Shown here: in pieces, positions 1-41,816 of the stretch
Numbering within the stretch: position 1 is the stretch's first letter
Layout: each line of letters begins with the position of its first letter
NCBI GenBank assembly: GCA_021773645.1
Contig: JAJFJU010000012.1
Span: 310,001-374,000 of the forward strand
Direction of reading: 5' to 3'
Source of the DNA: Gammaproteobacteria bacterium
Lineage (GTDB): Bacteria; Pseudomonadota; Gammaproteobacteria; HK1
Length of the DNA: 64,000 bases
Program-made: the position numbers and the translations under genes
The notes under the pieces: generated by a model
Seen by the model: only the letters and a program-made list of their open reading frames with translations
Told to the model about the DNA's origin: nothing
The model's database searches: none

Positions 1-2735
1 CCACCTTGCCTCCAGGTGCAGTGAAACAGGCTGAGGCAAAGCCCGGTGCGGCGCGAAACATCAAGAAAGTGGTTTCCGTTTGCACCCACTGTTCCGTTGG
101 CTGCGGCATTGTCGGTGAGGTAGATAACGGCGTGTGGGTGGGTCAGGAGCCTGATTTCGACAACCCCTTTAACCTTGGCTCCCATTGCGCCAAGGGTGCC
201 AGTGTTCGCGAACATGCCATCGGTGAACGCCGCCTCAGGTATCCGATGAAGTTGGTGGGTGGCAAGTGGAAGCGGGTCAAATGGGCTACGGCGATCAACG
301 AGATCGGTGACAAAATGCTTGAGATCCGTAAGAGTTCCGGCCCGGATTCGGTATATTGGCTGGGCTCTGCCAAGTTCAGCAATGAGCAGTCCTATCTGTT
401 CCGTAAATTTGCCGCGTTCTGGGGTACCAACAACGTCGATCACCAGGCGCGTATCTGCCATTCGACCACCGTTGCCGGCGTTGCCAACACCTGGGGCTAC
501 GGCGCGATGACCAATTCCTTCAACGATATCCACAACTCCCAGGCCATCCTTTTGATTGGCTCCAATCCGGCCGAGGCGCATCCGGTGGCAGTGCAGCACA
601 TCCTCAAGGCCAAAGAGGAGAATAATGCGCCGCTGATCGTTTGCGACCCGCGTTTTACGCGTACCGCAGCTCATGCCGATGAATATGTGCGTCTGCGTCC
701 TGGCACCGATGTGGCGCTGGTCTGGGGCATCCTCTGGCATGTCTTTGAAAATGGCTGGGAGGACAAGGAGTTTATCCGCCAGCGCGTCTACGGGATGGGT
801 GAGATTAAGGCCGAGGTCAAGAAATGGAACCCGGAGGAGACTGAACGGGTTACTGGAATTCCCGGTGGGCAACTCAAACGTGTCGCTCGACTCATGGCGA
901 ATAACCGGCCAGGCACAGTGGTGTGGTGCATGGGTGGGACCCAGCACACCAACGGCAACAACAACACTCGCGCTTACTGTATTCTGCAGTTGGCTTTGGG
1001 GAATATGGGGCGTGCCGGCGGTGGAACCAACATCTTCCGTGGCCACGATAACGTCCAGGGGGCGACAGATTTCTGCATCCTGTCCCATAGCCTGCCCGGC
1101 TATTACGGTCTAAAAACCGGGTCATGGAAGCACTGGGCCCGTGTCTGGGATGTGAAACACAGTTACCTCAAGGGACGCTTCGCCTCGCAGAAGATTATGG
1201 AATACAAAGGTATTCCGGTATCCCGCTGGTTCGATGGTGTGCTCACGCCCAAGGAGAAGATGGACCATCAGCCCGATAACGTCCGTGCCATGGTGTTCTG
1301 GGGCCATGCACCTAACTCTCAGACCCGTCTGCCGGATATGAAAAAGGCGATGGAAAAGCTGGACCTCATGGTGATCGTCGATCCCTATCCAACCATGGCT
1401 GCGGTCATGAGTGACCGCAAGGATGGGGTCTACCTGTTACCGGCGGCGACGCAGTTTGAAACCTACGGTTCAGTAACGGCATCCAACCGCTCGCTGCAGT
1501 GGCGTGAGAAGGTCATTGAGCCGATGTTCGAATGCAAGCCTGATCACACCATCATGAGCTTGTTCGCCAGTAAACTTGGTTTTTCCAAGGAGCTCTTCAA
1601 AAACATCGAGGTGGTGGATGAGGAACCGCTGATCGAGGACATCACCCGTGAATTCAATAAGGGCATGTGGACCATCGGTTATACCGGGCAGTCGCCCGAA
1701 CGCTTACGCAAACACATGCAAAATCGGCACACTTTCGACAGGACTACGTTGGTGGCCAATGGCGGCCCCTGTGATGGTGAATATTTTGGTCTGCCGTGGC
1801 CCTGCTGGGGGACCGCCGAGTTCGCCCATCCAGGTACACCGATCCTTTACGACACATCAAAGCCGGTGGCTGAAGGTGGGCTTAATTTCCGTGCCCGTTT
1901 CGGTATCGAGCGTAACGGCGTGAACCTGCTCTCCGAGGGCTCCTATCCAGTTGGCAATGAACTCAAGGATGGTCATCCCGAGTTCTCTATGGCCATGCTC
2001 AAGAAGCTCGGCTGGGACAAGGATCTGACTACCGGTGAAAAGGCCATCATGGCCAAGGGCGTTGGCGCTAAGAGCAATTGGAAGACGGACCTTTCGGGTG
2101 GCATCCAGCGGGTCGCCATCAAGCATGGTGCCGCTCCCTTCGGTAACGCCAAGGCGCGCTCCGTGGTGTGGACCTTCCCGGATCCGGTACCGCTGCATCG
2201 CGAGCCTTTATATACGCCAAGGCGCGATTTGCTGCCAAAATATGAGACTTATACGGATCGTCAGGCTTATCGATTGCCCACTATGTACAAGTCGATCCAG
2301 GATAAGGATTTTTCCAAAGACTTCCCAATCGTCCTTACCATGGGCAGGCTAGTGGAATATGAGGGTGGTGGCGGAGAGAGTCGCTCTAACCCGTGGTTGG
2401 CTGAATTGCAGCAAGAGATGTTTTGCGAACTGAATCCTCGCGATGCCAACAACCTGGGTATCCGTGATGGCAAGGATATCTGGGTGAAGAGCCCGGAGGG
2501 CGGCAAGGTCCGGGTTAAGGCGATGCTTACCAATCGTGTGGGCCCGGGGGTTGCCTTCATGCCGTTCCACTTTGGCGGCCATTGGGAGGGCAAGAGTCAA
2601 AGGCACAAGTATCCAGAGGGTGCTGATCCCTATGTGCTCGGTGAAGCTTCCAATGTCTGCGGGACCTACGGATACGATTCGGTCACCCAGATGCAGGAAA
2701 CGAAGGCCACCCTGTGTCGAATCGAGAGAGCATAA
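1..2735 (+). CDS. fdhA: Formate dehydrogenase catalytic (alpha) subunit, 5' end cut by window
   Basis: Catalytic Mo/W-bis-MGD subunit that oxidises formate to CO2 and passes electrons to the FdhB clusters. About 910 codons are visible, and the frame stays open to base 1, so the true start and the expected twin-arginine signal lie outside. The N-terminal [4Fe-4S] ligands are CTHC-x3-C near residues 26-33 of the visible part and C61. The metal-binding position is a Cys in ARICHS (codon TGC at 456-458), so this is a Cys enzyme, not a Sec enzyme. The usual molybdopterin oxidoreductase core follows, then the C-terminal dinucleotide-binding domain (about residues 765-905). It is followed 11 bases later by fdhB with an AAGGAG ribosome site between them. 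The neighbouring tungstate importer suggests a W enzyme, but the sequence alone cannot tell W from Mo. Confidence 0.95.
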   Translation, partial: TLPPGAVKQAEAKPGAARNIKKVVSVCTHCSVGCGIVGEVDNGVWVGQEPDFDNPFNLGSHCAKGASVREHAIGERRLRYPMKLVGGKWKRVKWATAINEIGDKMLEIRKSSGPDSVYWLGSAKFSNEQSYLFRKFAAFWGTNNVDHQARICHSTTVAGVANTWGYGAMTNSFNDIHNSQAILLIGSNPAEAHPVAVQHILKAKEENNAPLIVCDPRFTRTAAHADEYVRLRPGTDVALVWGILWHVFENGWEDKEFIRQRVYGMGEIKAEVKKWNPEETERVTGIPGGQLKRVARLMANNRPGTVVWCMGGTQHTNGNNNTRAYCILQLALGNMGRAGGGTNIFRGHDNVQGATDFCILSHSLPGYYGLKTGSWKHWARVWDVKHSYLKGRFASQKIMEYKGIPVSRWFDGVLTPKEKMDHQPDNVRAMVFWGHAPNSQTRLPDMKKAMEKLDLMVIVDPYPTMAAVMSDRKDGVYLLPAATQFETYGSVTASNRSLQWREKVIEPMFECKPDHTIMSLFASKLGFSKELFKNIEVVDEEPLIEDITREFNKGMWTIGYTGQSPERLRKHMQNRHTFDRTTLVANGGPCDGEYFGLPWPCWGTAEFAHPGTPILYDTSKPVAEGGLNFRARFGIERNGVNLLSEGSYPVGNELKDGHPEFSMAMLKKLGWDKDLTTGEKAIMAKGVGAKSNWKTDLSGGIQRVAIKHGAAPFGNAKARSVVWTFPDPVPLHREPLYTPRRDLLPKYETYTDRQAYRLPTMYKSIQDKDFSKDFPIVLTMGRLVEYEGGGGESRSNPWLAELQQEMFCELNPRDANNLGIRDGKDIWVKSPEGGKVRVKAMLTNRVGPGVAFMPFHFGGHWEGKSQRHKYPEGADPYVLGEASNVCGTYGYDSVTQMQETKATLCRIERA

Positions 2736-2746
2736 GGAGTTAGATC

Positions 2747-3343
2747 ATGGCGCGAATGAAATTTCTCTGTGATGCTGAGCGGTGTATCGAGTGTAATGGT
2801 TGTGTCACCGCGTGTAAGAACGAGAACGTTGTTCCCTGGGGTATTAATCGCCGCCGGGTAGTGACGATCAACGATGGTAAACCCGGCGAGAGATCGATAT
2901 CAGTGGCTTGCATGCACTGCTCGGACGCCCCGTGTATGGCGGTTTGCCCAGTTGATTGCATTTACCAGACCGATGACGGTGTAGTGCTGCACTCGAAGGA
3001 TCTCTGCATTGGTTGCGGATATTGCTTCTACGCCTGTCCTTTCGGTGCCCCGCAGTTCCCGCAAGCGGGCAATTACGGCAGCCGGGGCAAGATGGACAAA
3101 TGTACCTTCTGTAACGGCGGACCAGAGGAGGATCACTCGTCAGCCGAATTTCAGAAGTACGGACGCAACCGTCTTGCTGAGGGCAAACTCCCGTTATGTG
3201 CTGAGATGTGTTCAACCAAGGCGCTATTGGCAGGAGACGGCAATGAGGTGGCGAACATCTACCGAGAACGGGTGGTTGCTCGTGGCTTCGGATCCGGGGC
3301 TTGGGGTTGGGGTACGGCTTATCAGCGCAAATCACCCTCCTGA
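2747..3343 (+). CDS. fdhB: Formate dehydrogenase iron-sulfur (beta) subunit
   Basis: Electron-transfer subunit of 198 residues that links FdhA to the membrane cytochrome b. It shows four Cys clusters typical of four [4Fe-4S] centres: CIECNGC near residue 15, CMHCSDAPCMAVC near residue 50, CIGCGYCFYAC near residue 87, and CTFC with a late CAEMC pair near residues 120-150. No membrane anchor is visible at the C terminus, unlike FdnH, so it probably docks on FdhA and the cytochrome without its own helix. The ATG has a strong AAGGAG site nine bases upstream. It is clearly in an operon with fdhA and fdhC. Confidence 0.95.
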   Translation: MARMKFLCDAERCIECNGCVTACKNENVVPWGINRRRVVTINDGKPGERSISVACMHCSDAPCMAVCPVDCIYQTDDGVVLHSKDLCIGCGYCFYACPFGAPQFPQAGNYGSRGKMDKCTFCNGGPEEDHSSAEFQKYGRNRLAEGKLPLCAEMCSTKALLAGDGNEVANIYRERVVARGFGSGAWGWGTAYQRKSPS

Positions 3344-3360
3344 GGCTGCGTCTGGCAAAG

Positions 3361-3382
3361 CCGGCACCAGAAGCGGTGCCGG
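3361..3382 (+). other. Intergenic hairpin between fdhB and fdhC
   Basis: CCGGCACC and GGTGCCGG form a perfect 8-bp stem with a 6-base loop in the 72-base gap. There is no T-tract, so it is more likely an mRNA-stabilising or processing hairpin than a terminator. Confidence 0.4.
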
Positions 3383-3415
3383 TGTAACGGCTGAGCTTCC
3401 CTAAGGAGACGCGGT

Positions 3416-4414
3416 ATGAATTGGTTATCCCTCCGTCACGCGTTAAGTTGCATGAGTGTTGCCTTACTGATGCTCTGTGCAACGGGCATTATCTTGTTGG
3501 GTTCTGTCTCTTTCGATTCCCCGGTTATGGCACAGACTCAGGGCGAGGTGCCGGGCAGCGCGCTGGGTAGCACCAACGACCCCGAATTCTGGCGACAGGT
3601 GCGCCGTGGTGCCTCTGGGACCGTGAGTATTCCCGACAAAAAGGCAGGCGTGTTGGTGCAGTCGGGTGGTGACGAGTGGCGGGTCACGCGCAATGGCTTG
3701 ATCTCCAGATACGGAGCTTGGGCTCTGGCGGCAATTTTCGTGATCCTGGTTATTTTTTATTTCGTCCGCGGTCGGATCAAGATTGATAAGGGATTTTCTG
3801 GCCGCCTTGTACGCCGCTTCAGCAATATTGAGGTCAGTACTCACTGGCTAACGGCATTTTCTTTTATCATCCTGGCCATTACCGGTCTGAATCTTCTTTA
3901 TGGCCGGTACGTGCTTCTACCCGTCATCGGTCCAGAAATCTTCGCATTGCTCACCAGTTGGGGAAAATCCGCCCATAATTACATCGCCTTTGCATTCATA
4001 CTGGGCATACTGACGGAGGTCGTTCTATGGCTGAAGGACAACCTGCCAGACCGCTACGATGCCGAGTGGCTTGCCCAGGGTGGCGGCCTATTCAAGAAGG
4101 GTGTGCATCCTCCGGCGGGTAAATTCAACACCGGTCAAAAAGCAATCTTCTGGATAGTCCTCATTGGCAGTGGTTTTAGTGTTTTATCAGGCGTGAACCT
4201 GTTGTTTCCCTTCTACTTGCTGGATCTGCAGCAAATGCAGTTGATGCTGGTGTTCCATTCCATCTCGGGGCTGTCCCTGACCTTCGTGATTATTGCCCAT
4301 ATCTATATTGGGACGATTGGCATGGAAGGTGCGTTAGATGCTGTGCGCACGGGATACGTCGACGAAAACTGGATGCTCCAACACCACAGTGCTTATGTCC
4401 CTAAGGACAAGTAA
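3416..4414 (+). CDS. fdhC: Formate dehydrogenase cytochrome b (gamma) subunit
   Basis: Membrane di-heme cytochrome b that anchors the dehydrogenase and reduces quinone; 332 residues. A signal-like hydrophobic segment (about residues 10-38) and a soluble stretch precede the core, which begins near residue 98. Four further hydrophobic helices follow, with candidate heme His residues in THWLTAF (about residue 142), SAHNYIAFAF (about 184), and VFHSISG and IIAHIYIG (about 280-300). The long N-terminal extension is usual for this proteobacterial type and absent from E. coli FdnI. The ATG lies eight bases after AAGGAGA. It ends the operon; the next genes face the other way. Confidence 0.93.
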   Translation: MNWLSLRHALSCMSVALLMLCATGIILLGSVSFDSPVMAQTQGEVPGSALGSTNDPEFWRQVRRGASGTVSIPDKKAGVLVQSGGDEWRVTRNGLISRYGAWALAAIFVILVIFYFVRGRIKIDKGFSGRLVRRFSNIEVSTHWLTAFSFIILAITGLNLLYGRYVLLPVIGPEIFALLTSWGKSAHNYIAFAFILGILTEVVLWLKDNLPDRYDAEWLAQGGGLFKKGVHPPAGKFNTGQKAIFWIVLIGSGFSVLSGVNLLFPFYLLDLQQMQLMLVFHSISGLSLTFVIIAHIYIGTIGMEGALDAVRTGYVDENWMLQHHSAYVPKDK

Positions 4415-19976: not shown

Positions 19977-22502
19977 ATGTCTGTTATTTGGAGCTTGTTC
20001 TGGGTGGTGCTGTTTGTGGGGGGCGCCATTGTGCTGGCCTATCGACGTGCCAGTCTGATGGTGGCAACGGTGGTTTTGGCGGGGGCTGTTTTTGCCTATG
20101 GCTTGCTGGGTGATGGCGGCGTACTTTGGCTTTGTCTGCTATGGCTTACGGTTTTTGGACTTGTCTTACTTAATCTCGGAGGACTTCGGCGCCACTACCT
20201 AACGGTGCCCCTACTGCGTCTTTACCGTAAGTTACTGCCCGCTATGTCGGATACCGAGCGCGAGGCGCTAGAAGCAGGGACAGTGTGGTGGGAAGGGGAG
20301 TTATTTTCTGGCCGGCCCGATTGGCAGCGTTTGATGTCGATGCCGGCACCGCGGCTGACGGTGGCAGAGCAGGCTTTTCTGGATGGGCCCACTGAAGAAC
20401 TCTGCGGGATGCTGGATGAGTGGGATATTACCCATCGGTGCCTGGATATGACTCCGGTAGTTTGGGATTTCATTATCCATAACGGCTTCTTCGCGATGAT
20501 TATCTCCGAGGAATACGGCGGTAAGGGCTTTTCCGCCCAGGCCAATTCTCTAGTATTGCAGAAGATTGCCAGTGTCAGCGCCACCGTGGCTGTCACCATT
20601 GGTGTACCCAACTCGCTAGGACCGGCTGAGTTGTTGCTGCACTACGGCACAGAGGCGCAGAAACAGCGTTATCTACCTGGGTTGGCGAAGGGCACGGAGA
20701 TTCCTTGCTTCGCCCTTACCGCACCTCGTGCAGGCTCTGATGCCGCCTCTATTCCCGACACTGGAATCGTCTGCAAGGGGGAGTGGCAGGGTGAGGAGAT
20801 CGTTGGCATACGGCTTAATTGGCGCAAGCGCTATATCACCCTGGCACCTATCGCTACGGTATTGGGGCTGGCCTTCAAGCTCCATGACCCCGAGCACCTC
20901 ATCGGCGAACGTGAGGACTACGGCATTACCTCAGCGCTGATTCCGGTGGGGCTGCCCGGCATTGATATAGGGCGGCGGCATTTCCCGCTTAATACGCCGT
21001 TTCAAAACGGACCGACCACTGGTACGGATGTGTTCGTGCCGCTGGATGCCATCATCGGCGGGCAGGAGATGGCGGGGCAGGGCTGGCGCATGCTGATGGA
21101 GTTGTTGTCCGCCGGGCGCTGCATCACCCTGCCGTCGAGCGCCACCGGTGCCGCCAAGATGGCGGTTTATAGTGCCGGTGCCTATACCCGGATCCGCAAG
21201 CAATTTAATCTGCCGGTGGGGAAGTTTGAGGGTGTTGGCGAGGCCTTGGCGCGCATGGTGGGCCTCACCTATACCGCCAAGGCCGCCACCGCGGTGACTG
21301 TGGCAGCGGTGGACCGCGGCGAAAACCCAGCCGTGGCCTCGGCGATCCTTAAATGCCACGCCACTGAGTTTAATCGCCGGGTCATCAATGACGCGATGGA
21401 TGTGCATGGCGGTAAGGGCATCATGATGGGACCGAAGAATTACCTTGCCCGGGCCTATGAAGCGGTGCCGATTGGCATCACCGTAGAGGGCGCGAATATT
21501 CTCACTCGTAGCCTGATTATCTTTGGCCAGGGGGCAGTGCGTTGTCATCCGTGGGTGCGCAAGGAGCTAGCGGCGGCGGGATGTGAGGATGAGCAGCAGG
21601 CTCTAGTGGACTTTGATCGGGCGCTGTTTGGCCATATTGGCTATGCCCTGAGCAATGCGGCGCGGGCCTTTGTATTGGCGCTGACCCATGCTCGCTATGC
21701 TGGGGTGCCCGAGCAAGGGTCGACACGGCGTTATTTCCAGCACATCAATCGCTACAGCGCGGCCTTTGCGCTGGCCGCCGATGTGGCGATGCTGACGCTA
21801 GGTGGTGATCTGAAGAAGAAAGAGCGCTTGTCGGCGCGTCTGGGTGATGTGTTGAGTGGGGTCTATTTGGCCTCCATGGTGCTCAAACACTATGCCGATG
21901 AGGGTCGGCCCGCTGCGGATCTCCCGTTGGTGGAGTGGTCGTGCCGGAATCTGCTGTATGAGGCGCAGGAGCAGTTGCACGGTTTGTTGCGTAATTTCCC
22001 TAATCCCTTGGCTGCGAGATTGCTACGTTTTCTGATCTTTCCACGGGGCCGCACCTATTTCGCGCCCAGTGATGCTCTGGGACAGCAATTGGTCGAACAG
22101 GTGATTAACCCCACCGAAACGCGCGATCGGCTGTGTGCCGGCATTTACAAACGTAATGACGGTAAAAACCCCATGGGTTTGTTGCAGCAGGCGCTGGAGT
22201 TGGCAGTTGCCATGGAGCCATTGGAGGCACGCTTGCGCACGGCGGTTAAGGATGGGCGTGTGGCGGCACCCGATTTGCCACGCCAGATCGACCGGGCTGA
22301 GGCGTTGGACGTGCTATCCGCAGAGGAAGCGGCGCAACTGCGTGATTACGATACCAAGGTTATGGCGCTTATCGAGGTGGATGATTTCTCCGCCGGGGAG
22401 TTGGGTGCGGAAACTTATCTCACGCCTGGTGCGGCCGCAAAGGTTTACTGCAAAGCGGTCAGAAAAAGGAAGGCGCCGGACGGAAAAAAACGCTCCCCCT
22501 AG
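19977..22502 (+). CDS. fadE: FadE-type acyl-CoA dehydrogenase
   Basis: Membrane-associated acyl-CoA dehydrogenase for the first step of fatty-acid beta-oxidation; 841 residues against about 815 for E. coli FadE. The N terminus has two or three hydrophobic helices (residues 1-70). The flavoprotein core follows with FAMIISEEYGGKGFSAQAN, SATVAVTIGVPNSLGPAELL, ALTAPRAGSDAASIPD and GKGIMMGPKNYLARAY. The long C-terminal helical region unique to FadE is complete. It stands alone, with a TATAAT upstream and no other beta-oxidation gene nearby; a degenerate piece of a similar gene lies at 26.1 kb. Confidence 0.93.
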   Translation: MSVIWSLFWVVLFVGGAIVLAYRRASLMVATVVLAGAVFAYGLLGDGGVLWLCLLWLTVFGLVLLNLGGLRRHYLTVPLLRLYRKLLPAMSDTEREALEAGTVWWEGELFSGRPDWQRLMSMPAPRLTVAEQAFLDGPTEELCGMLDEWDITHRCLDMTPVVWDFIIHNGFFAMIISEEYGGKGFSAQANSLVLQKIASVSATVAVTIGVPNSLGPAELLLHYGTEAQKQRYLPGLAKGTEIPCFALTAPRAGSDAASIPDTGIVCKGEWQGEEIVGIRLNWRKRYITLAPIATVLGLAFKLHDPEHLIGEREDYGITSALIPVGLPGIDIGRRHFPLNTPFQNGPTTGTDVFVPLDAIIGGQEMAGQGWRMLMELLSAGRCITLPSSATGAAKMAVYSAGAYTRIRKQFNLPVGKFEGVGEALARMVGLTYTAKAATAVTVAAVDRGENPAVASAILKCHATEFNRRVINDAMDVHGGKGIMMGPKNYLARAYEAVPIGITVEGANILTRSLIIFGQGAVRCHPWVRKELAAAGCEDEQQALVDFDRALFGHIGYALSNAARAFVLALTHARYAGVPEQGSTRRYFQHINRYSAAFALAADVAMLTLGGDLKKKERLSARLGDVLSGVYLASMVLKHYADEGRPAADLPLVEWSCRNLLYEAQEQLHGLLRNFPNPLAARLLRFLIFPRGRTYFAPSDALGQQLVEQVINPTETRDRLCAGIYKRNDGKNPMGLLQQALELAVAMEPLEARLRTAVKDGRVAAPDLPRQIDRAEALDVLSAEEAAQLRDYDTKVMALIEVDDFSAGELGAETYLTPGAAAKVYCKAVRKRKAPDGKKRSP

Positions 22503-22580
22503 ACTAAATATATCTCTCAATAATTGTCGGTGAAAAAATGGCGGATTTGTCATGAAGGAGAGAATTAATATAAGGTGTTG

Positions 22581-22676
22581 ATGCAATACGTGTTTTACGG
22601 TGACCACGAGGATGGGAGTGGCCCGATGAAGGCGAAACCCGGTAGTACTTGTTATCCGTATACATTTATAGATTGA
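22581..22676 (+). CDS. Possible 31-residue peptide upstream of norS
   Basis: An ATG-to-TGA frame giving MQYVFYGDHEDGSGP, then KAKPGSTCYPY and TFID. AAGGTG precedes the ATG by three bases. It lies 37 bases before the oxidase-like subunit II gene. There is no family I recognise, and a frame of this length can arise by chance. Nothing else is evident in the 211-base gap. Confidence 0.2.
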   Translation: MQYVFYGDHEDGSGPMKAKPGSTCYPYTFID

Positions 22677-22713
22677 TAATAAAAGTACGGCAGATTTCTA
22701 GTTAGGGGGGTGT

Positions 22714-23235
22714 ATGAACGCATTGGCTGGATGGATTACGCTGGTTCTGTTGATTCTTCTCACGATCGTATTCTGGTTTGTCATAGCGCGTAGCCAGACT
22801 ACTGAAGACTATGCCGAGGTCCAGGGAAAGGCGGGGCGCTTGAGGTCTCCCTGGTTCTGGATTCTGGTGGTGTTTGGTGTTTTCATCACCTTCGCGACGC
22901 TGCGACCGTTCCCGATTACTGCCCAGGCAGCGAGCCAGGATGCTGGTATTCGCATCGATGCAATCGGACATCAGTGGCGCTGGACTCTTAGCCAAAATAC
23001 GGTTCCCGCTGGAGAGCCCGTGGTCTTCCATGTCACTGCCTCGGATGTCAATCATGGCTTTGCCATCTATGACGAAAACTCCACTTTGCTCACTCAGACA
23101 CAGGCAATGCCCGGCTACGTAAACAAGCTGAGATACACCTTCAATGAGCCGGGTACGTACCGAGTGTTGTGCCTCGAATACTGCGGTGTTGCACACCATG
23201 CCATGGTTACCGAAATCCAGGTTTTGGCGCCTTAG
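22714..23235 (+). CDS. norS: Heme-copper oxidase-type subunit II with CuA site (NorS/CoxB2-like)
   Basis: Membrane-anchored cupredoxin of 173 residues with two N-terminal helices (about residues 5-25 and 48-68). The complete CuA site is visible: His114, Cys153, Glu155, Cys157, His161 and Met164 (CLEYCGVAHHAM). It accepts electrons from a cytochrome or cupredoxin and feeds subunit I. The gene order subunit II, subunit I, senC, membrane protein matches the norSY-senC-orf1 cluster of nitrifying and related bacteria, proposed to encode the sNOR nitric oxide reductase. A divergent B-family oxidase is the alternative. It begins with a GGGGGG ribosome site close upstream. Confidence 0.85.
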   Translation: MNALAGWITLVLLILLTIVFWFVIARSQTTEDYAEVQGKAGRLRSPWFWILVVFGVFITFATLRPFPITAQAASQDAGIRIDAIGHQWRWTLSQNTVPAGEPVVFHVTASDVNHGFAIYDENSTLLTQTQAMPGYVNKLRYTFNEPGTYRVLCLEYCGVAHHAMVTEIQVLAP

Positions 23236-23255
23236 TGGCTGCCCAGGGGGAACTA

Positions 23256-24725
23256 ATGATGCAGTCAACGACGGAATATTCTCAGGCGGAAAATCAATCT
23301 GCTTTGTTTGCGGTCAAAACCCAGCTTGTGGTGGGTCTGCTGGTCTTCATACTCATGATTGTTGCCGGGGTGGTGTTGCGTGCCGCGCAGGGGAGCTGGA
23401 TTGAGATTGGGCCGGATCTTTTCTACCAGCTAATGACTCTGCATGGGGCCGGCATGGTCGGTACCGCTGGTATTGCGGGCAGCGTGGTCATGTGGCATTT
23501 CCTGCGCCGCCAAGTGCAACTCTCGACAGCATTCTTCTGGACATTTTTTCTGCTTTGCTTGCTCGGAGTTGTGCTGATATTGGCGGCTATCTTTATCGGA
23601 AAGTTTGCTGGCGGCTGGACCTTCCTGTATCCGTTGCCGGCGAAATCCATGGGTAGTTGGTCTGTTTTAGGGGCGGCCCTATACATGTTTGGCTTACTGT
23701 CCATCGGCGTTGGATTTCTGATCCTGTACCTAGACGTCGGACGCGGCATCCTGCACCGCTTCGGTAACTTCGCCAAGGCGCTTGGTCTAGACAGCCTGTT
23801 CGGCAGTACGCCAGTGAATCCGGACCACCCATTATCGGTGGTGGCCTCGACCATGGTGCTTATCGTCAATGTCGCGGGTATTGCTGCTGGAGCCGTGGTA
23901 CTGGTGATGTGCCTGGTGAACCTCTACTACCCGGCATTTGCGCCGGACGCGCTGCTCATCAAAAATCTGATCTTCTTCTTTGGGCACGTGTTTATTAATG
24001 CGTCGATCTACGCTGCGGTAATCGTAGTCTACGAGCTTTTGCCGCATTACACCGGCCGGCCCTGGAAGGCATCGAAGGTATTCTTTGCCGCTTGGGCAGC
24101 GGTCACGTTGATGGTGATGGCGGTTTACCCACATCACCTGCTGATGGATTTCCCAATGCCCCGCTGGGCCGCGACCATGGGGCAGATCGTGTCCTACATG
24201 AGTGGTATCCCGGTGCTGGCGGTTACCGGTTTTGGGGCACTGACCATCATCTACCGTTCGGGAATCCGCTGGACCATGGCGCCGTGCATGCTGGTGCTGT
24301 CGATATTTGGCTGGTCGGCCGGCGTGATACCGGCCATCGTGGATGCGACCATCCAGGTTAATCTGGTGATGCATAACACGCTGTGGGTCCCCGGGCACTT
24401 TCATTTGTATCTGCTGCTCGGCTTGCTGCCTATGGTGCTCGGTTTTGCCTTTTACCTGATTGACACAGGTGAGCAGGAGATTGCGGTCGTGGATCGGCTT
24501 AGCTTCCTTGCATACGCCGGGGGTGGTTTTTTGTTTTGCGCGGTGTTTCTTGCCAGTGGTACTGCCAGTATCCCGCGGCGCTGGGCGGTTCATTATGAGG
24601 CATGGCTGGGACATGCACAGCTTGGCACCGTAGCGGGTGTGATCGTACTGCTTGCCATACTGGTGCTGGGACTTCGAATCTTGTTGCGGTTGCCGAGTGC
24701 TGGCGTACCTGAAAACACTGGCTAG
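23256..24725 (+). CDS. norY: Heme-copper subunit I lacking the active-site Tyr (NorY/CoxA2-like)
   Basis: Twelve-helix-type catalytic subunit of 489 residues. All metal-ligand His are present: His63 and His383 (low-spin heme), His381 (high-spin heme) in WVPGHFHLY, and CuB His244, His293, His294 (YPHHLL). The B-family signature MHNTLWVPGHFH resembles ba3 oxidases. The position of the cross-linked Tyr (His244+4, HPxxY in oxidases) is Asn248: GHVFINASIY. Loss of this Tyr is expected for NO reductases and not for O2 reductases of families A and B. I start at the ATG at 23256, with an AGGGGG site; an upstream in-frame region overlaps norS. NO reduction is inference from the site and the neighbours. 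Confidence 0.85.
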   Translation: MMQSTTEYSQAENQSALFAVKTQLVVGLLVFILMIVAGVVLRAAQGSWIEIGPDLFYQLMTLHGAGMVGTAGIAGSVVMWHFLRRQVQLSTAFFWTFFLLCLLGVVLILAAIFIGKFAGGWTFLYPLPAKSMGSWSVLGAALYMFGLLSIGVGFLILYLDVGRGILHRFGNFAKALGLDSLFGSTPVNPDHPLSVVASTMVLIVNVAGIAAGAVVLVMCLVNLYYPAFAPDALLIKNLIFFFGHVFINASIYAAVIVVYELLPHYTGRPWKASKVFFAAWAAVTLMVMAVYPHHLLMDFPMPRWAATMGQIVSYMSGIPVLAVTGFGALTIIYRSGIRWTMAPCMLVLSIFGWSAGVIPAIVDATIQVNLVMHNTLWVPGHFHLYLLLGLLPMVLGFAFYLIDTGEQEIAVVDRLSFLAYAGGGFLFCAVFLASGTASIPRRWAVHYEAWLGHAQLGTVAGVIVLLAILVLGLRILLRLPSAGVPENTG

Positions 24726-25326
24726 TACCGCCTTTGTACTCGCTGTTGGTGCCCTGATCCTGTGGTTTGGCACCGATGGTGGTACGGCGTTTACCGCAGA
24801 AACTGCACGTCGCGTCGCCTTGCAAAGGGTCGCCAGAGAGGTTCCGGGCTGGACCTTGCAGGATGAATCCGGGTCCGTGCGGCACTGGCCGGAACCATCC
24901 GGGCGCTACCTGGTGGTTGATTTTATGTATACCCGCTGCGCCAGTATCTGCAAGGCACTTGGCAGCGGCTTCCAACAACTGCAGCGCCAGTTTCCGCACG
25001 CCATGCAAGACGGGCGGTTACAATTGGTGAGTCTTACCATCGACCACCAGCATGATCTCCCTGAGGCATTGCACGCCTATCGCGCGCGCTATGGGGGTCG
25101 CTCGCCCCATTGGGCTGCTGTCCGCCCAACTTCTAATGCCGATGCCCGGGAGCTAATGAAATTTTTCGGGGTTATTGCCATAGCCGATGGATTGGGGGGG
25201 TATACCCATAATGCCGCCTATCACGTTATCGACCCGCAAGGCCGACTGGTGGCAATCTATGGATTGGAGGCTTTGGCTGAACTCAAGGATTACCTGGATG
25301 AGAAGCTGGGGAACACCAAAATCTAG
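24697..25326 (+). CDS. senC: SCO1/SenC copper chaperone
   Basis: Membrane-anchored thioredoxin-fold protein of about 209 residues that assembles the CuA site. One N-terminal helix (about residues 5-26), then the Cys pair MYTRCASICK and the distal His in YTHNAAYH, the three copper ligands of the SCO family. The family usually has CPxxC; the Pro is absent here. The start is uncertain: a GTG at 24697, inside the norY end, is the best candidate because a TTG at 24652 would place charged and Cys-rich residues before the helix. It overlaps norY by about 29 bases. Confidence 0.82.
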   Translation: MLAYLKTLASTAFVLAVGALILWFGTDGGTAFTAETARRVALQRVAREVPGWTLQDESGSVRHWPEPSGRYLVVDFMYTRCASICKALGSGFQQLQRQFPHAMQDGRLQLVSLTIDHQHDLPEALHAYRARYGGRSPHWAAVRPTSNADARELMKFFGVIAIADGLGGYTHNAAYHVIDPQGRLVAIYGLEALAELKDYLDEKLGNTKI

Positions 25327-25900
25327 GGCGGTCACGGCCGTCGCTGGTATCGTGCTGCTCGCTAGCCCCGTGGGACGTCTTCTCGAAGCAAGCATGCTGA
25401 GTCATGTGCTGGTGCAGTTGCCGTTACTGGCGCTACTTGGCTGGTATCTTGGCAAGCAGATTCCGGAACGATGGTGCGAAGTGATCGGAGGGTGGAATCG
25501 CTTTGGAGTTCCCGGTTTGCTGCTGATGAGTTTTACCATTGTCTACTGGATGTTGCCGCGGGCTCTTGACGGATCGTTGACTGATGGCCTGATCACCTTT
25601 GCCAAGTTCGTTAGCGTACCCCTACTGATCGGTATGCCTCTGGCGATCAGCTGGCCGCAGGCTCCGATGGTGGTGCGCGGGCTAACGGTGTTTGAACTTT
25701 GGGCCATGTTGATGCGGCTTGGCTGGCTTTACCTGGATACCCCTGTGCGCCTGTGCAGTAATTACCTGTTGCAAGAGCAGGTTACGCTTGGCATAGGGCT
25801 GATTTCACTTGCCGCGTTATGGGTGATAGGTATCTGTGGCTACTTTCTGTTTCGGCCCGCAACAGGCTTTTCTGAAACTAGTGGAGAAGGGCTGGAATAA
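25298..25900 (+). CDS. Multi-pass membrane protein, orf1 of the norSY-senC cluster
   Basis: About 200 residues with five or six hydrophobic helices (residues 13-33, 37-56, 72-88, 100-118, 150-175 region). The ATG at 25298 follows an AAGGA by eight bases and overlaps senC by 29 bases. No cofactor motif is obvious apart from a few His/Trp. A similar unnamed membrane gene closes the norSY-senC-orf1 set, and distant resemblance to CtaG-type assembly proteins is possible. The role in assembly or as an extra subunit is inference. Confidence 0.72.
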   Translation: MRSWGTPKSRAVTAVAGIVLLASPVGRLLEASMLSHVLVQLPLLALLGWYLGKQIPERWCEVIGGWNRFGVPGLLLMSFTIVYWMLPRALDGSLTDGLITFAKFVSVPLLIGMPLAISWPQAPMVVRGLTVFELWAMLMRLGWLYLDTPVRLCSNYLLQEQVTLGIGLISLAALWVIGICGYFLFRPATGFSETSGEGLE

Positions 25901-26118
25901 GCAGCGTGATGGTGGCAAAGAAGATGGAATTGGCGCTCTCAAAAAGTGCTTTTATATCTCCCAGGCCGTTCCAAGTCTTTACGGGCAGGGTACTTGCCAG
26001 GGCCTATGTTGTCCCCACCCATTTTTTTCTTTCGAGCCTCTCTCTTTCTCCTCGACTGTTCTCCCGATAGGTCAAGTGCCTTCGTCGCTGTCAATCGGGC
26101 TCGCGGTGGGCCGGGGAG

Positions 26119-26268
26119 ATCTTGGGTCTTGCCTTTAAGCGCTCTGACCCGGAATACCTCATCGGAGAGTGCGATGAGTATGCGGTTAATTCGGCATCAT
26201 TTCCGGTGGAAGTGCTTGGTATTGCTCGCACTATTTATGCGGATTTCGGCGCTAAAAGTTTGCCTTAG
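26119..26268 (+). pseudogene. Degenerate fadE fragment
   Basis: The frame ILGLAFKRSDPEYLIGECDE, then YAVNSASFPVEVLGI closely tracks the FadE segment LGLAFKLHDPEHLIGERED, YGITSALIPVGLPGI encoded at about 20.87-20.97 kb. Roughly half the residues are identical over 35 positions. It has no start and ends at TAG. It is thus a remnant of a second fadE-like gene or of a partial duplication. The preceding 25901-26118 has no convincing gene; short frames there are interrupted. The fragment overlaps the HD-GYP stop by a few bases on the other strand. Confidence 0.65.
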
Positions 26269-41648: not shown

Positions 41649-41816
41649 TTAGGGAAGCTCTGCTCTATTCGTGAACTCGCATCTTGCGCCCAAAATGCCC
41701 CTCTTTATCGTTGCCGCTCTTCGTAATAGATTAACTATTACGTGCCATCGGCGCCTCAAAGTTGAACATTTTGAATCCCAATCTACTTCGTCCAGAATAA
41801 ATCAGAGCTTCCATAA
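41649..41816. mobile_element. 168-bp palindromic MITE-like element (trpA-accD gap)
   Basis: Terminal inverted repeats of 14 bases (TTAGGGAAGCTCTG at 41649-41662 and, reversed, CAGAGCTTCCATAA at 41803-41816) differ at one position. The exact midpoint is the perfect hairpin CGTAATAG-ATTAA-CTATTACG (41722-41742), and weaker matches (for example AAAATG and CTTT) line up in between. It contains no gene. It nearly fills the 186-base gap. This is the structure of a non-autonomous transposon or large intergenic repeat. Confidence 0.6.

Follow-up and report, generated by a model that had tools for sequence, protein, structure and literature searches.

A norSY-senC-orf1 (sNOR) cluster inserted beside fadE in a gammaproteobacterium and its probable function in nitric oxide reduction

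The norSY-senC-orf1 clusters, whose products are known as sNOR, have been described in ammonia oxidisers such as Nitrosomonas europaea, where the four genes correspond to NE0683-86 (PMC4940428). Among heme-copper enzymes, the residue found at the position of the cross-linked tyrosine of the active site is Tyr in the O2 reductases, Asn in sNOR and CuANor, Gln in eNOR and Asp in gNOR (PMC8756737, Table A4), and the distinctions made here between eNOR, sNOR and gNOR are based on that work and on PMC11388526. The function of sNOR is still debated, since it could operate as a NO reductase or as an oxidase at low O2. In N. europaea the enzyme is up-regulated under O2 limitation, and it has been argued to be a possible high-affinity O2 reductase (PMC6967387). 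In the literature searched, we found no biochemistry or enzyme assay of any sNOR. Annotation routinely labels these clusters cytochrome c oxidase, and a capacity to produce N2O thereby stays hidden. The cluster analysed here lies in a stretch of 64,000 nucleotides of gammaproteobacterial DNA (the window, to which all coordinates without a prefix refer), and we estimate at roughly 0.78 the probability that it is a horizontally acquired norSY-senC-orf1 cluster whose enzyme reduces two molecules of NO to N2O, and not O2.

Four genes follow one another on the forward strand. The first one (22714-23235, 173 aa) encodes a norS-like subunit II in which a CuA cupredoxin domain (Pfam COX2, 2.2e-11) is preceded by two N-terminal hydrophobic stretches, and the second (23256-24725, 489 aa) a norY-like heme-copper subunit I (COX1, 3.3e-46). 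They are followed by a gene with a GTG start for a SCO/SenC copper chaperone (24697-25326, 209 aa; SCO1/SenC, 5.6e-12) and by orf1 (25298-25900, 200 aa), which encodes an all-helical membrane protein matching no Pfam family at the default threshold. The Pfam matches and the helical model of orf1 bear out the four components named in the preliminary description of this DNA, which had also presented the genes as overlapping. This holds for the last two junctions, subunit I/SCO and SCO/orf1, with 29 bp each, but not for subunits II and I, which are 20 bp apart. The 211 bp that precede the cluster contain no FNR/DNR-type box, and no regulator box or convincing promoter was found upstream of it.

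The resemblance to norSY-senC-orf1, proposed from the start, proved to be consistent along the whole cluster, given that the gene order matches that of NE0683-86 and that the succession subunit II-subunit I-SCO-orf1 is kept, on a common strand, at 89 of the 92 related loci, an arrangement that is therefore not due to chance. The exceptions are a locus placed at a contig end (L022), another without SCO (L081) and a distant relative without orf1 (L023). Relatives were collected by scanning an alignment of subunit I against 84,980 genomes, which yielded 418 related loci; among the best 80 of them, which were kept, the nearest subunit I sequences are those of Nitrosomonas, with 60-63% identity. 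Within the same class, which is Gammaproteobacteria in the broad sense, subunit I occurred in 13 of the 369 genomes sampled. The subunit I of one member of the class (G139, L013) is identical in sequence to that of Thiohalophilus thiocyanatoxydans (L067). Clusters of sNOR type were also seen on contigs labelled as Gemmatimonadota and Acetobacteraceae MAGs (L077, L080, L073, L079, L082), nested among other proteobacterial sequences, and reflect either transfer or binning error.

Subunit II shares 40-58% identity with its relatives, and its CuA site, already read as intact in the preliminary description, holds all its ligands (H114 and C153-x-E155-x-C157-x3-H161-x2-M164), which are kept in 91-92 of 92 relatives. 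Likewise, the C81-x3-C85 pair and H171 of SCO are present in 92 of 92. Homologues of orf1 appeared in 91 of 92 loci, with identities of 29-53%, and an alignment of 31 of them showed W84, M85, P87, D91, K103, C153, Y156 and Q161 to be invariant. The predicted structure of orf1 is confident and helical, with no match in the PDB, and its product probably participates in the assembly of the enzyme. We also considered orf1 as a CtaG-type copper-insertion protein, on account of a motif; this assignment was dropped, since Pfam offered only a weak resemblance to DUF1404 and the model lacked any PDB match.

The heme and copper ligands of subunit I could be assigned to H63 and H383 (low-spin heme), H381 (high-spin heme) and H244, H293 and H294 (CuB). 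All of them occur in 93 of 93 sequences with the exception of H63, found in 92 and facing a gap in the remaining one. The position of the cross-linked Tyr, in helix VI and four residues past the CuB histidine, is occupied by Asn248, and Asn stands there in 92 of 92 readable members, one of the 93 sequences having an unreadable letter. In the same alignment, Tyr occupies this position in the A-family oxidases, including that of the host itself, and Gln in a further group; subunit I carries Asn and not the Gln that marks eNOR. A Tyr supplied by helix VII, in the manner of the C-family (cbb3) enzymes, was examined and rejected: Tyr291, beside the HH pair, is replaced by Phe in 25 and by Val in 1 of the 93 sequences, and helix VII contains no other invariant Tyr. 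Two tyrosines of helix VI, Tyr252 and Tyr259, are invariant and lie 8 and 15 residues past the CuB histidine, that is, about two and four helical turns.

A tree of 98 subunit I sequences, in which ba3 oxidases were left out and compared by profile only, placed the protein as sister to Nitrosomonas NorY with a SH-aLRT value of 93, not decisive for this exact relation, the Nitrosomonas group itself receiving 100. The wider clade comprises 18 sequences, with Chromatiaceae and Granulosicoccaceae among them (SH-aLRT 98), and stands apart from both the A-family oxidases and eNOR. This phylogeny, which had been suggested as a check on the cluster as a candidate sNOR, and the family-wide Asn248 agree with that proposal; membership in sNOR is well supported, with NO reduction as its likely, though unproven, function. 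The distant relative L023 (G163) shares 39% identity and shows the active-site Asn and a HNTLWVPAHFH motif, and may represent a further branch of the CuA-containing NO reductases.

The four genes and their flanking non-coding DNA constitute a segment of ~3.7-3.8 kb (22503-26222), located between fadE and a HD-domain gene, that is missing from the congener G002. The nucleotide match to G002 ends at 22420 and restarts at 26223, with only 12 bp in between in that genome (L141, 6574/6587), and the segment is also missing from the second congener, G001 (L142). Its left neighbour is an intact gene on the forward strand for a fadE-type acyl-CoA dehydrogenase (19977-22502; Pfam), 84-89% identical in the congeners. 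A decayed second copy of fadE, also on the forward strand and made up of an internal fragment of 89 bp joined to the fadE 3' end, occupies the right edge of the insertion (26123-26265). The presence of this remnant at one edge despite the intact gene at the other suggests integration through recombination at fadE. The G+C content of the cluster matches that of the genome, hence either the insertion is of some age or its donor was of similar composition.

The host genome (2.49 Mb, 99.9% complete) encodes two heme-copper enzymes, namely the sNOR-type one and a canonical aa3-type A-family oxidase, apparently split over two contig ends, whose normal HPEVY motif indicates that O2 respiration is otherwise provided for. 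Neither another NO reductase of the heme-copper superfamily nor a cbb3-type enzyme was found in the genome. As stated in the preliminary description, no other denitrification gene was seen in the window among the genes scanned, which were a part of its ORFs. The window opens with tandem genes for the alpha, beta and cytochrome b subunits of a formate dehydrogenase-like enzyme (6-4414); the first of them was also considered as a nitrate reductase, a reading that was dropped in view of its formate dehydrogenase alpha-like sequence and its beta and cytochrome b companions.

The search of the whole genome for nir and nos genes, another check proposed for the candidate, revealed an ncgABC-nirK-like cluster of Nitrosomonas type on the same contig, ~305 kb downstream of the sNOR cluster (G000:C4:639643-642805, or L117:5644-8806, reverse strand). 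The NirK match (C4:639679-640515) lies below the cut-off of the curated TIGR02376 model (169 vs 296 bits), and the best solved relative of the protein is 4kns (E 1.4e-104), which we take to be the NirK of N. europaea. The neighbours of nirK are a multicopper oxidase gene and a pair of cytochrome c genes, arranged as in ncgABC-nirK. This stretch is conserved in both congeners, and nirK endows the genome with a source of NO. AMO, NosZ and NirS were all absent from the genome in searches that detected AMO in two Nitrosomonas, NosZ in Aromatoleum, Noviherbaspirillum and Thiohalophilus, and NirS in relatives. With NirK present and NosZ absent, the expected product is N2O. A short repeated intergenic element of up to ~130 bp lies close to nirK in three congeners and recurs elsewhere in the host genome (copies at L117:5449-5593, L120:3774-3861, L147:13101-13150, L146:6640-6796 and L145:11074-11202).

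Taken as a working enzyme, subunit II would receive electrons through CuA from a periplasmic donor, either a cytochrome c or a cupredoxin, and subunit I would pass them via its low-spin heme to the heme/CuB centre, which, devoid of the cross-linked Tyr, would convert two NO into N2O instead of splitting O2. SCO would load the copper and orf1 would probably aid the assembly. Gene content and order, active-site residues, phylogeny, the insertion and the lack of other heme-copper NO reductases are observations, from which the substrate, the electron donor, the role of orf1 and the physiological direction of the reaction are inferred. In conjunction with the AOB-type NirK encoded on the same contig the enzyme would complete a short route from nitrite through NO to N2O, its end product.

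NO reduction might nevertheless be purely protective, serving against NO released by NirK or by neighbouring cells and staying outside energy metabolism, a possibility to which we assign somewhat less than even chances. The lack of NosZ and NirS is in line with such a role, as is the AOB literature, where NO reductases are described as being lost in connection with low nitrosative stress (PMC4940428), and sNOR has been listed as an enzyme without proton channel (PMC8756737). However, a subunit II provided with CuA implies coupling to the respiratory chain via periplasmic electron carriers. The same chemistry fits both roles, so that protection differs in emphasis from the reduction of NO to N2O proposed above and is compatible with it.

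Both congeners, G001 and G002 (L140:222-3429 and L144), possess a second heme-copper enzyme with a SCO gene and a CuA subunit II; helix VI of this enzyme has the sequence GHSSQQ and displays the Gln typical of eNOR. Gln-type subunit I sequences were found as well in the family members G005, G009 and G012, whereas the host genome contains no enzyme of this kind. All three members of the genus keep nirK. The simplest reading of this single case is a substitution of sNOR for eNOR, in whichever order loss and gain occurred; we give even odds to an exchange of eNOR for a horizontally acquired sNOR in one lineage of a genus that keeps an AOB-type nirK. The ancestral eNOR site was not found in the stretches of the host genome compared. 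An intergenic sequence of 168 bp in the window (41649-41816) is 83% identical to a segment of a congener's eNOR contig (L144:2559-2726). If the replacement is true, it would be a natural substitution demonstrating that sNOR fulfils the role of eNOR, a characterised NO reductase, and would bear on the question of NO reductase versus oxidase. The two enzymes can be compared directly in this genus, where they seemingly swap next to a common nirK.

These observations also weigh upon the proposal that the enzyme, sNOR by descent, serves chiefly as a terminal O2 reductase of high affinity at low oxygen. The induction reported in N. europaea and the argument built on it (PMC6967387) speak in its favour, and in a genome deprived of cbb3-type enzymes a low-O2 oxidase would be useful. 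Nonetheless, Asn replaces the cross-linked Tyr throughout the family, with no conserved Tyr at a known replacement position; CuANor, which is a NO reductase, has Asn there too (PMC8756737), and within the genus sNOR substitutes for eNOR and not for an O2 reductase. We consider this alternative unlikely. NO reduction remains the best-supported function because the Tyr is missing, the Asn is common with CuANor, NirK is present and sNOR alternates with eNOR. Far less probable still, to the point of being hardly tenable, is that the preliminary description gave a wrong label to a canonical ba3 (B-family) oxygen reductase. The AlphaFold model of subunit I, similar to heme-copper oxidases (TM ~0.8), the profile matches to ba3 and aa3 oxidases and the CtaD/CoxB-like labels of automatic models lend this reading some credit. 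Against it stand NCBIfam oxidase scores far under the cut-off (44.7 vs 670.75 bits), the alignment of Asn248 to the Tyr of the ba3-type GHPVVY motif of the solved oxidase 7deg in the profile comparison, through which alone ba3 was compared, and the grouping of subunit I with NorY in a tree without ba3. No conserved Tyr stands at the usual helix VI position or beside the HH pair of helix VII, and the outcome that the preliminary description named as refuting its proposal, a place inside canonical ba3 with a Tyr from elsewhere, was not observed.

Compared with the known systems, the cluster is a further example of the already described sNOR type. It shares with the Nitrosomonas norSY-senC-orf1 the four genes and their order, the active-site Asn and, through subunit I, a sister position; unlike Nitrosomonas, its host has neither AMO nor cNOR, and the cluster sits in an insertion that the congeners lack. 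The sNORs of Nitrococcus, Aromatoleum, Thiohalophilus, Chromatiaceae and others present the same cluster and residues with 49-60% identity and form remoter branches, some of their hosts also carrying nosZ. The eNOR of the congeners (L140, L144) is likewise composed of a CuA subunit II and a heme-copper subunit I, with a SCO gene and the Tyr replaced, but differs in its Gln, its separate branch, its other locus and the fact that no orf1 was seen with it. Finally, the bNOR/CuANor of Bacillus azotoformans, compared by its description in the literature and not by sequence, likewise contains CuA, has Asn in place of the Tyr and has been reported as a NO reductase, differing in the one proton channel ascribed to it.
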